Below, one piece after another: positions 2,583 through 17,317 of a stretch of DNA of 51,211 bases. The DNA lies in contig JAHIPV010000023.1 of NCBI GenBank assembly GCA_018902845.1, positions 1-51,211 on the forward strand, written 5' to 3'. This DNA comes from Patescibacteria group bacterium (GTDB lineage: Bacteria; Patescibacteriota; Microgenomatia; UBA12405). The position numbers and the translations under genes are program-made. The first letter of the stretch is position 1. Each line of letters starts with the position of its first letter. The notes under the pieces are model-generated. The model did not search any database, was not told the DNA's origin, and saw nothing but the letters and a program-made list of their open reading frames with translations.

Positions 2583-3296
2583 ATGTCCACCAAGAAATTC
2601 CGCACCATCAGTATCCTGTTCATCTTGGCAATCCTTGTCACAGGATGCCAAAATCCCCAGGCCAAAAAGGCTGGGGTGTGGTACGCTCCCTGGACGTGGG
2701 GAGACCACACACTCGAGGAATCGTTGGAAACCGGATGCGCAGGTGGCGCCACATCCACAATCATCAAGGGCTCAACCTACCCCTGCCCAGCTACCGAAGA
2801 ACCGGCCGACTCCGAAGCCCCCGTGGCCCCCACCGACGTCCCGCTCGACCCCACGGCCGTCCCCGAAGAACCCGCTGAAGAGCTCCCCAACGACGAGTCC
2901 ACTATCTGCCAAGGTGAAGGCATGTGGTCTGCTGCCGGTGAAGCTCCCCAAACACTCGACGAAGCCGCCGAAATTCTAGGTGTCAACGATTCCATCAAGC
3001 GCTACATGACACCGCTTTACCCAGAACCCGGCGACGACACCGTCATTGGATGGGTCATCGGCACCAAAGCTACCGAATCCGAAGGGCGCACTTTCAGTGC
3101 CAACATACCAGCCTGCACTACCGTAGACTATGATCCCGATGTCAGCGAGTTAACCGGCAACAGCCACTGGACAGTTGAGTTCACCCCAGACTGGCAAAGA
3201 GCGCTCATGGCTCAAAACGGCGAACTGGCCAGCATCAAAATCACTGTCTATTGGACACCCGGCGACCCTGGTGACGGCACCATCGTCAGCGAGTAG
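2583..3296 (+). CDS. GC-rich lipoprotein with Pro/Glu-rich linker
   Basis: Lipobox LVTGC after a hydrophobic signal; aaaggagg SD 5' of ATG; GC content visibly much higher than flanks. Confidence 0.8.
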   Translation: MSTKKFRTISILFILAILVTGCQNPQAKKAGVWYAPWTWGDHTLEESLETGCAGGATSTIIKGSTYPCPATEEPADSEAPVAPTDVPLDPTAVPEEPAEELPNDESTICQGEGMWSAAGEAPQTLDEAAEILGVNDSIKRYMTPLYPEPGDDTVIGWVIGTKATESEGRTFSANIPACTTVDYDPDVSELTGNSHWTVEFTPDWQRALMAQNGELASIKITVYWTPGDPGDGTIVSE

Positions 3297-3315
3297 CTCG
3301 ACAACAATCTTTCAG

Positions 3316-3348
3316 CAAGACGAAGGGCCTAAGGAACCCTTCGTCTTG
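3316..3348 (+). terminator. strong hairpin 3' of the lipoprotein gene
   Basis: CAAGACGAAGGG-cctaaggaa-CCCTTCGTCTTG; no clear T-tract, so terminator function uncertain. Confidence 0.45.
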
Positions 3349-3412
3349 CCCCTCCGGGGGGCTACTCCGGACACACACACACAAAACAAAAAGAGAGAAA
3401 AGCAAGCAAATT

Positions 3413-3481
3413 AGACGTTCGTCCGATCAATCGGACCTGATGAGTCTGCCTCTGAAAAATTCAGAGACAACGAAAACGTCT
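3413..3481 (+). ncRNA. type III hammerhead ribozyme
   Basis: Stem III AGACGTT/AACGTCT; C17 at 3420; stem I GTCCGAT-ca-ATCGGAC; core CTGATGA (3437-3443); stem II CTCTGAA/TTCAGAG with internal loop; GAA(A) at 3472-3475. Confidence 0.88.
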
Positions 3482-3501
3482 GTCAATCTAAAAACTAATA
3501 T

Positions 3502-3529
3502 TTCAACCCCGCCCTTGCGGGGTTGAAAA
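3502..3529 (+). other. perfect 12-bp GC-rich hairpin after the ribozyme
   Basis: TTTCAACCCCGC-CCTT-GCGGGGTTGAAA, no T-tract. Confidence 0.6.
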
Positions 3530-3540
3530 CTAAACAAACC

Positions 3541-4296
3541 ATGATAACTATAAATTTCGTCATACCAGCTTACAACGAACAAAAGCGTCTTGAAAAAACT
3601 TTCAAAGCCTTAAATTCTTTTCGTCCCTCAAAAGACATCAAAATCACTAAAGTCATCTTTATCAATGACGGTTCTACCGATTCCACTCTCAAAATCTTAA
3701 AAAACACCAAACTTAAATTCTCAAAAAAAATCATTTCTTATTCCCAAAACCAAGGAAAAGGCTATGCCATAAAACAAGGTTTCTTGTCAGCCAATGCCGA
3801 TTATGCTCTCTTTTTTGACACTGATATGTCAACACCCATATCAGAGCTAAAAAAAATACTACCTCTCCTAAAACAAAACATCCCCGTCATTATAGGTACT
3901 CGCAAAAACGGTCAATCTACCGTCACCACTCCTCAGCCAATCTATCGCCAAATCCTGGGTCGCTGTTTCACTTATCTTTCAAATATTATTTTAAACACCT
4001 GGGTTACTGATTTTACTTGTGGTTTTAAAGCTTTTTCTCGGCAGGCCTATCAATCAATCGCGCCATTAATGACTATCAATGGCTGGAGTTTTGATTCAGA
4101 AATTCTTTTTCTAGCCAACAAACTAAATTTTAAAATTCAGGAAAAAGCATTAATTTGGGGTAATGAAGCCAACACAAAGGTTGACCTAAAAAAAGATATC
4201 TTCATATCTTTAATTGAACTTTTCAAAATCCGCATTAATCATAGTAGCCCTCTCACCTTGCCATACTTAAAACTGGCCCAAGCTAGTGTAAACTAA
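3541..4296 (+). CDS. family 2 glycosyltransferase (dolichyl-phosphate sugar synthase-like)
   Basis: NFVIPAYNEQKRLEKT, INDGSTDST, FFDTDMSTP; ATG 3541 preferred over TTG 3523. Confidence 0.85.
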   Translation: MITINFVIPAYNEQKRLEKTFKALNSFRPSKDIKITKVIFINDGSTDSTLKILKNTKLKFSKKIISYSQNQGKGYAIKQGFLSANADYALFFDTDMSTPISELKKILPLLKQNIPVIIGTRKNGQSTVTTPQPIYRQILGRCFTYLSNIILNTWVTDFTCGFKAFSRQAYQSIAPLMTINGWSFDSEILFLANKLNFKIQEKALIWGNEANTKVDLKKDIFISLIELFKIRINHSSPLTLPYLKLAQASVN

Positions 4297-15148: not shown

Positions 15149-15793
15149 ATGCAACAAATTCTAAACTCAATTCTAGAACTCATAAAAACCAACGGTCTTT
15201 TTGCTATGTTTCTTGGCGGTTTTGTCGAACAAATTATAGTGCCAATTCCCTCTCCTATTATCACCATGGCCGGAGGTGCTTTTCTCATCTCACTCAATCT
15301 GCCAATTTTTGAAACCATCTTCCAAATTTTCAGTAAAGTTTCTCTTCCTTATACCATCGGCGCTACCATTGGTACCAGTCTTGTTTACTTCTTGGCTTTT
15401 TTTGGGGGCAAACCAATTCTTGACAAATTTGGTAAATATATTGGTATTAGCTGGAAACTAATCGAAAAAATTAAAAAGGATTTTCAAAAAACCATCAAAG
15501 ATGAACTATTTATTCTCATCGCCTGCAGTATTCCAATCGTACCTGTCTCCTTAGTTACCGCTTTTTGTGGCGGTTTTAAAATTTCTCCCAAAAAATTCTA
15601 TCCCATGCTTTTTTTGGCTCTTCTTATCCGTGCTACCCTGTTAGGTTTTATCGGTTTTCAAATGGGTGAAACATTCGAATCCTTAGCCCACGGTCTAGAC
15701 AAAATAGAGTCCCTTTTAACCATCATCGGCATCTTTCTAATTCTCGGCTTCCTCTACCTCAAACGAGAAAAATGGATCAAAAACAACAGCTAA
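15149..15793 (+). CDS. DedA/VTT-domain membrane protein
   Basis: FLGGFVEQIIVPIPSPIITMAGGAFL, CSIPIVPVSLVTAFCGGFKISPKKFYP. Confidence 0.85.
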   Translation: MQQILNSILELIKTNGLFAMFLGGFVEQIIVPIPSPIITMAGGAFLISLNLPIFETIFQIFSKVSLPYTIGATIGTSLVYFLAFFGGKPILDKFGKYIGISWKLIEKIKKDFQKTIKDELFILIACSIPIVPVSLVTAFCGGFKISPKKFYPMLFLALLIRATLLGFIGFQMGETFESLAHGLDKIESLLTIIGIFLILGFLYLKREKWIKNNS

Positions 15794-16818
15794 TCGCACA
15801 CACTTCCACAATCCTCTTTTCTAGTCCCGCAATGCGGACAAACAGTAATTCCCCTACCCGAAGCAATCGCCCCCCCACATTTGGGACAGTCAAAAGTTCT
15901 ATCCACACTTCTCGAAAACTCGCCCCCTCCCAAACCAATAGCAAAGACCATATCAAAACTACCCCCGCTGGATAATCTGCTCAAAGCCTCTGTGTTAGAC
16001 ATTCCACAGCTTCCTCTTGACTGTAATCTCACCCCCCCCAACTGCTGTAACATTCTCTCCATTTCCGCCCCTACTTTTAATCTTTCGTAACAATCATCAG
16101 TTCTCATACCTGCCAATCTCGCCTCCATTCTACCAACTACCATTTCAGCTAATCCTCTTTTGCTTGCCTGGTCCCTTACATCTCCTCGTTCTTTAACAGT
16201 TCTCCACACTTCCGGCATATCAATTACTCTCCCCAGTACATCCACCCAATTCCCCTTGCCAACTACAAATGGAATCGGTCTATTCCTCAATTCTTCCGCC
16301 CTACTCACCTCCAAACCCAAATTCCTTGCAATTTTCACACACTCATCAGTACTTTGCTCTCCACAAATCCCCCTACACTCCAACACCACCTCTTCACCAA
16401 CACTCCTAACTACAGCTACCACAAACCTACTTTCTTTATACCCAATCTCCCCCGAGGGTGGGCTAATCCACAACATATGTTTCCATCCTTCTTTTGCTAA
16501 ATCTCTCATCCCAGACAAAGCCTCATTTTCAGCAAAATCAGCTTTCGTTTTCCATCTCAATTCGAAATTCGGCATTCCATCTTTACCAAATCTTATCTCA
16601 AAAGGAGTAATTCTTTCTTCCAACCCAACTCCAGCCCTATTCTCCGCCATTAAAGCAGTCAAATCCTCTCCCATTCTTCTCCGATCTACCCCACCACCCC
16701 CATCAACATATGCTCCAATATCAAAATAACTTCCCTCTACTCTCATATTCACTTTTGCTCGAAAGATTCCAGGTTCCGGACTTTTACCGTTGCGGCACAG
16801 CTTGGGACTTCCACCCAA
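15790..16818 (-). CDS. uncharacterised protein with C-terminal zinc ribbon
   Basis: C-terminal CPKCGG-X11-CPHCG; no other domain recognised. Confidence 0.6.
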   Translation of the reverse strand: MGGSPKLCRNGKSPEPGIFRAKVNMRVEGSYFDIGAYVDGGGGVDRRRMGEDLTALMAENRAGVGLEERITPFEIRFGKDGMPNFELRWKTKADFAENEALSGMRDLAKEGWKHMLWISPPSGEIGYKESRFVVAVVRSVGEEVVLECRGICGEQSTDECVKIARNLGLEVSRAEELRNRPIPFVVGKGNWVDVLGRVIDMPEVWRTVKERGDVRDQASKRGLAEMVVGRMEARLAGMRTDDCYERLKVGAEMERMLQQLGGVRLQSRGSCGMSNTEALSRLSSGGSFDMVFAIGLGGGEFSRSVDRTFDCPKCGGAIASGRGITVCPHCGTRKEDCGSVCD

Positions 16819-16834
16819 TTCCCTTAAAACTAAA

Positions 16835-17317
16835 TTAACTCAAGCTTACTCCCAACATAAACAAATAACTGGACAATCTATTTAAATAAGACAAAATATC
16901 CTTATCTACTTTTTTTTCTTTAGACAAGCTCACCACTCTTCTTTCTACTCTTCTGGCCACACTTCTACAAATATGTAAAACTGCATCAAGCTCATTTTTT
17001 CCTGGTACTACAAACCCTTTCGGTCTTGGTAAACTCTTTTTTAATTTAACAATCTCTTTTTCCATCTCTCCAACCTCTTTTTTACCTTCCCACTTCCCAC
17101 ACCCTACCAATTCACTGCTAATCCCCATCAAATCTTTCTGTATTTCTTCTATTTTTCTTCGCCTCGCCATAGCTTTCAGCGACGGCGGGTTTTGTCTTTT
17201 CCTGTCATTCTTAATTTTTACCTTTGCCCATCCCAAAAAACACACCAGCTCATCAATACTCCCCACCGCTTCTAACACTGCTCCATCCTTATCAAACCCT
17301 CTCTGTTTTTTATTCAT
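16835..17317 (-). CDS. cob(I)alamin adenosyltransferase (PduO/MMAB type)
   Basis: VGSIDELVCFLGWAK, LDAVLHICRSVARRVERRVV, LSYLNRLSSYLFMLG. Confidence 0.88.
   Translation of the reverse strand: MNKKQRGFDKDGAVLEAVGSIDELVCFLGWAKVKIKNDRKRQNPPSLKAMARRRKIEEIQKDLMGISSELVGCGKWEGKKEVGEMEKEIVKLKKSLPRPKGFVVPGKNELDAVLHICRSVARRVERRVVSLSKEKKVDKDILSYLNRLSSYLFMLGVSLS
17164..17195. repeat. palindromic repeat inserted in adenosyltransferase CDS
   Basis: cctcgccatagctttcagcgacggcgggtttt; encodes NPPSLKAMARRRK. Confidence 0.8.

Follow-up and report, generated by a model that had tools for sequence, protein, structure and literature searches.

The window, by which we mean the whole 51,211-nt stretch of DNA that was analysed, comes from a genome of 1.06 Mb in 24 contigs that is 93.5% complete. 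On its forward strand, a lipoprotein gene is followed by two hairpins, a spacer, a type III hammerhead ribozyme motif, a palindrome, and a gene for a family 2 glycosyltransferase (Table 1). The lipoprotein gene has a GC content of 58%, while its surroundings are at about 36%. Its product had no match in Pfam or PHROGs, and no homologs were found in plasmids or in 192 genomes of the class.

No plus-strand terminator was found at the first hairpin, which lacks the T-tract that an intrinsic terminator would have on that strand. A sequence-only reading of this DNA had proposed that the 3' UTR of the lipoprotein gene holds a type III hammerhead, which is what the evidence shows, and had placed a 12-bp hairpin just downstream of it. 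That hairpin is real (the palindrome of Table 1). The stronger hairpin upstream of the motif, absent from that reading, is the one that proved to be a recurrent feature. The spacer of 41 nt between the window's hairpins and the motif resembles those of a subgroup of relatives with purine-rich spacers, and the ATG of the glycosyltransferase gene lies 59 nt past the motif.

Table 1. Features around the hammerhead motif (positions in the window)
Feature	Position	Strand	Basis
Lipoprotein gene, 237 aa, lipobox LVTGC near the N-terminus	2583..3296	+	Translation
13-bp hairpin in the 3' UTR, GCAAGACGAAGGG/CCCTTCGTCTTGC, no T-tract after it	3315..3349	+	Fold of the gap from stop codon to hammerhead, z = -7.1
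Second hairpin, 7 bp	3353..3371	+	Fold of the same gap
A/C- and purine-rich spacer ending in GCAAGCAAATT	3372..3412	+	Similar in the counterparts of genomes G001 and G011
Type III hammerhead ribozyme motif	3413..3481	+	Bases, Rfam alignment, fold, Markov simulation, R1 and R3 scores
Predicted cleavage site, after C17 (3420)	3420..3421	+	Where C17 falls in the family-model alignment
Core strand CUGAUGA (CTGATGA in the DNA)	3437..3443	+	Read from the bases
Core strand GAA (G12 A13 A14)	3472..3474	+	Read from the bases
12-bp palindrome, terminator-like for the minus strand only	3501..3528	+	Terminator search
Family 2 glycosyltransferase, conserved downstream neighbour	3541..4296	+	PF00535, E 6e-25

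Some further elements were seen in the window. Upstream of the lipoprotein gene, positions 2182-2236 and 2398-2439 are short dispersed repeats with many copies in the genome (REP-like), and 2462-2515, directly upstream of the gene, is an imperfect palindrome of about 54 bp with an 81% match to its own reverse strand. An AdoCbl-II (B12) riboswitch aptamer lies at 16763-16841 on the minus strand, with 38.7 bits, barely above the Rfam threshold; its neighbour is an ORF at 15790-16818 that has no Pfam match.

The hammerhead motif of the window

Every core position that the sequence-only reading had assigned was confirmed in the bases: the window has the CUGANGA and GAA strands, the A15.1-U16.1 pair, and a C rather than a G at position 17. 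Three helices surround this core, with stems I and II closed by loops and stem III open, which is the type III permutation. Stem III pairs AGACGTT (3413-3419) with AACGTCT (3475-3481). The fold contains all three of the stems that had been described, but stem I, GTCCGA-TCAA-TCGGAC, has 6 bp and a UCAA loop and not the 7 bp proposed earlier, which are impossible because only a 2-nt loop would remain. Stem II consists of 2 bp, a bulged C, two pairs, a C.A mismatch, and 7 bp. None of 200 shuffles folds as stably as the motif region (z = -3.2).

The Rfam type III model RF00008 aligns to exactly 3413-3481 with no broken pairs, so that the window shares with it CUGAUGA, GAA, U16.1-A15.1, C17, and the open stem III from end to end. 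The window differs from the family in its long and interrupted stem II and in its score, which at 23.2 bits falls short of the gathering score of 48.5; because of this low score RF00008 gives no match in the window's own genome at its default limit. Since RF00008 is narrow, we built a generic hammerhead model (R1) from 24 made-up sequences that combine the conserved core with random covarying stems, the window being excluded, and a control model (R2) that has the stems of R1 and a permuted core. R1 scored the window at 33.7 bits (E 1.9e-7 in 163 kb), where the next best match reached 18.5 bits. A refined model (R3), seeded with 70 real matches, gives 42.2 bits, a score that is not independent because the window is one of the 70 seeds; the R1 score is independent.

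In 41 Mb of order-2 Markov sequence, a scan for the core with three stems gave 17 loose matches, none of them as strong as the window, and no site had the core together with 6 bp or more in stem I and 7 bp or more in stem III. We are nearly certain that 3413-3481 is a real hammerhead motif, and we predict that it is probably active. The contact between loop I and stem II and the rate of cleavage are uncertain in the window, because its UCAA loop I and its stem II, whose internal loop could be the partner, differ from the commonest combination, UGUGU with AAAA; loops like these (I and II, respectively) are found in the relatives.

Relatives in the family and at the glycosyltransferase locus

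Hammerheads of this kind are conserved across the family. R1 matched 41 genomes out of 384 searched in the class and 35 out of 384 in the phylum; of the 41, 21 belong to the window's family, and a genome can hold as many as six copies. R3 matched 26 of the 36 family genomes, representing 12 of 15 genera, while R2 matched none of the 36. R3 had no match among the candidates scored, a part of the total, in 14 unrelated genomes. The relatives' genomes span 0.5-1.5 Mb. On the strength of the Markov scan and of the null results with R2 and in the unrelated genomes, we rejected chance resemblance.

The alignment of the 70 matches was fitted to the structure, which favours the pairing figures, and has 97% standard pairs, and 15 of the 16 pairs show changes on both sides; when the partner strand is slid, 31-44% of pairs are standard. 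The share of standard pairs is 94% at 20 further loci, of which one overlaps a weak match found before. A GTCC/GGAC segment in stem II and a UGUGU-like loop I are conserved among the 70 matches, though R1 did not impose them. None of 20 relatives' loci reached the gathering score of RF00008. A DNA similarity search with positions 3300-3560 against 57 genomes returned only the window itself. A fixed DNA pattern run over 85,462 genomes was rejected as a means of finding relatives, since it gave 14 matches, about the chance expectation, with a best R1 score of 18.5 bits. The sequence-only reading had named a covariance score below threshold, combined with a lack of homologs conserving the core, as an outcome that would refute it. 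The score is indeed below the Rfam threshold, but dozens of homologs, including a syntenic ortholog, conserve the core, so the reading survives.

The syntenic ortholog is in genome G001, from another genus, whose glycosyltransferase (62% identical) is the only one closely related to that of the window. There, the order is a GC-rich lipoprotein gene, two hairpins, an A-rich spacer, a type III hammerhead, and the glycosyltransferase gene. The stems of the G001 hammerhead are unlike those of the window, and its 3' strand extends into the ATG of the glycosyltransferase. R1 missed it; R3, whose seeds do not include it, scores it at 40.2 bits. The lipoproteins of the window and G001 have no detectable similarity; over 40 residues at the N-terminus, that of G011 matches the window's lipoprotein at 38% identity. 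Family 2 glycosyltransferase genes sit immediately behind a hammerhead, or touch it, in about 14 genomes of the family, and in about a dozen the ATG is -2 to +9 nt from the hammerhead 3' end. Because G001 and about a dozen further family genomes share it, the position of the hammerhead at the glycosyltransferase is conserved across genera. The gene upstream of these hammerheads varies and is often membrane-anchored.

Hairpins and hammerheads at the 3' ends of genes

The window's arrangement of an ORF, a stable hairpin, and a hammerhead recurs throughout the matches. Upstream of 60 of the 70 hammerheads, at a distance of 20-299 nt (median 81 nt), lies the end of an ORF on the same strand. The gaps between ORF and hammerhead are strongly folded compared with shuffles (median z -5.1, with 56/60 below -2), whereas stretches of equal length after the hammerhead have a median z of -0.6, and the intergenic 3' flanks of other genes at the same loci have a median of -0.8 (Mann-Whitney p 4e-11), although 32% of these other genes also have a well-folded flank. 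In 50 of the 60 gaps, no more than 6 nt separate the last paired base from the ribozyme. T-tract terminators are rare, with 1/60 between the stop codon and the hammerhead and 3/60 within 200 nt after the hammerhead. The 20 new loci are for the most part built alike: 17 have a same-strand ORF, and among these the gap z is below -2 in 16 and the hairpin is within 6 nt in 13.

The upstream genes are mostly orphans; 14 Pfam families were found in all, each in only one of 59 members. Their GC content is above that of their neighbours in 54/59 cases (p 2.5e-10), and their GC3 is mostly above that of ribosomal protein genes. Import from other genomes and selection for stable mRNAs would both fit this. 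Codon optimisation is not supported as the source, because ribosomal protein genes have roughly the AT content of the background. The idea that the upstream genes mainly encode secreted proteins was also dropped, since hydrophobic segments at the N-terminus show no significant enrichment (p 0.29). At three loci (L070, L081, and L064) the hammerhead lies beside an adenylosuccinate synthetase-like gene, one of which matches the phage 2-aminoadenylosuccinate synthetase family phrog_1211. In L106 (G506:C16) and L105 (G547:C32) there are tandem arrays of gene, hairpin, and hammerhead, with five and three units, respectively, in a few kb; the hammerheads within each array are similar and the genes differ.

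The same architecture is found in viruses. A search of viral contigs for the pattern CTGATGAGTCCN{3,9}GGACGAAA found at least 120 stretches, and among the 130 pattern matches in viral contigs L113-L232, 28 have type III geometry. A hairpin ends within 6 nt upstream of 27 of these 28 hammerheads, and 26 sit 8-58 nt past a stop codon. The other 102 of the 130 lack type III geometry and are perhaps type I. One viral contig, IMGVR_UViG_3300041956_000313 (L174), carries five copies of the stem II core pattern in 4.3 kb.

A proposed role in making mRNA 3' ends

The best explanation, to which we give a probability of roughly 60%, is that self-cleavage defines the hairpin-capped 3' end of the upstream mRNA and separates it from the downstream RNA. 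The order of the module is stop codon, stable hairpin, and hammerhead as the last element of the 3' UTR. Polymerase would read through, and the RNA would then cut itself after C17. 3' exonucleases are hindered by cyclic-phosphate ends and by hairpins. The lipoprotein mRNA would keep a defined 3' end that should resist them, with a 2',3'-cyclic phosphate behind the hairpin of 3315-3349, and the downstream RNA with the glycosyltransferase gene would become a separate molecule with a 5'-OH. Cutting could also free the glycosyltransferase start for translation in several relatives, because there the start codon directly abuts stem III. We infer that cleavage would fall just behind the hairpin from the fact that the upstream gene and its hairpin are the constant partner. 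Processing of the 3' UTR, which the sequence-only reading had offered as a possibility, is the best-supported role. The recurrence of the hairpin-hammerhead architecture at gene ends across the family and in phages suggests that self-cutting, and not ordinary termination, makes these message ends. Counting against this explanation are the window's spacer, as the hairpin of most relatives directly adjoins the hammerhead, and the Rfam gathering score, which the window does not reach. We put forward more tentatively, at clearly less than even odds, a broader proposal in which, in this lineage and in phages, the hairpin and type III hammerhead replace the terminator for selected GC-rich genes. The resulting messages would resist exonucleases, and at the glycosyltransferase locus the following start codon would be released only by cleavage.

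The high GC and orphan nature of the upstream genes would also fit a ribozyme that travels as a passenger of mobile cassettes with horizontally moved, phage-like orphans and serves the element, for example through unit-length RNAs or a phage transcription programme, rather than host mRNA. The raised GC3, the presence of the same module in viral contigs, and the tandem arrays are further points in favour of such cassettes. We consider them unlikely as the main explanation, given that the place before a family 2 glycosyltransferase is conserved over many genera and that an unsystematic look saw no integrase or repeat boundary delimiting a cassette. That 5' processing of the downstream gene, freeing the glycosyltransferase start codon from stem III and leaving a 5'-OH, is the main function is distinctly improbable: it agrees with the closeness of the ATG in about a dozen genomes, but many hammerheads precede a gene that is distant or on the opposite strand, the same-strand upstream gene is nearly constant, and in the window itself the ATG is well clear of the motif. 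Least probable of all is that the window's motif is a chance resemblance or a decayed, inactive ribozyme. The sub-threshold Rfam score and unusual stem II are what such a reading has to offer, and against it stand the intact core and stems and the lack of equally strong sites in simulated sequence; as chance it is contradicted by the R1 score, the R3 matches in the family, and the orthologous hammerhead of G001 with its different stems.

Hammerheads have been described in bacteria before. In passages of Perreault et al. (2011, PMC3088659), bacterial hammerheads of types I-III are in some cases grouped around one gene and associated with phages, many being close to phage genes, with ribozymes near integrases and ardA, and their roles are unclear; those passages mention neither an adjoining 3' hairpin nor this lineage, and the main text does not contain the word "terminator". 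Type III hammerheads cleave themselves efficiently as single units (PMC6155905). They also occur in viroid-like circular RNAs and retrozymes, where they process multimeric or circular RNA, unlike the mostly single copies behind diverse protein genes seen here. Like an intrinsic terminator, the module has a stable hairpin shortly past the stop codon that would set the 3' end of the mRNA, but this hairpin has no T-tract and is followed by a ribozyme instead. In the open literature, which leaves most subscription journals and preprints outside, we found neither a report of hammerheads from this group nor a description of the hairpin-hammerhead module. Hammerheads as such are known; the 3'-end module appears to be undescribed in the literature searched, and its novelty is provisional.

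The role of prokaryotic hammerheads was listed as an open question of the field in a 2017 review (PMC6155905). The recurrence of ORF, hairpin, and hammerhead in a family of small-genome bacteria and in phages offers a concrete and testable answer, namely that self-cleavage is used to make mRNA 3' ends. As the Rfam threshold hides these ribozymes, their true frequency in such bacteria may far exceed what is annotated.
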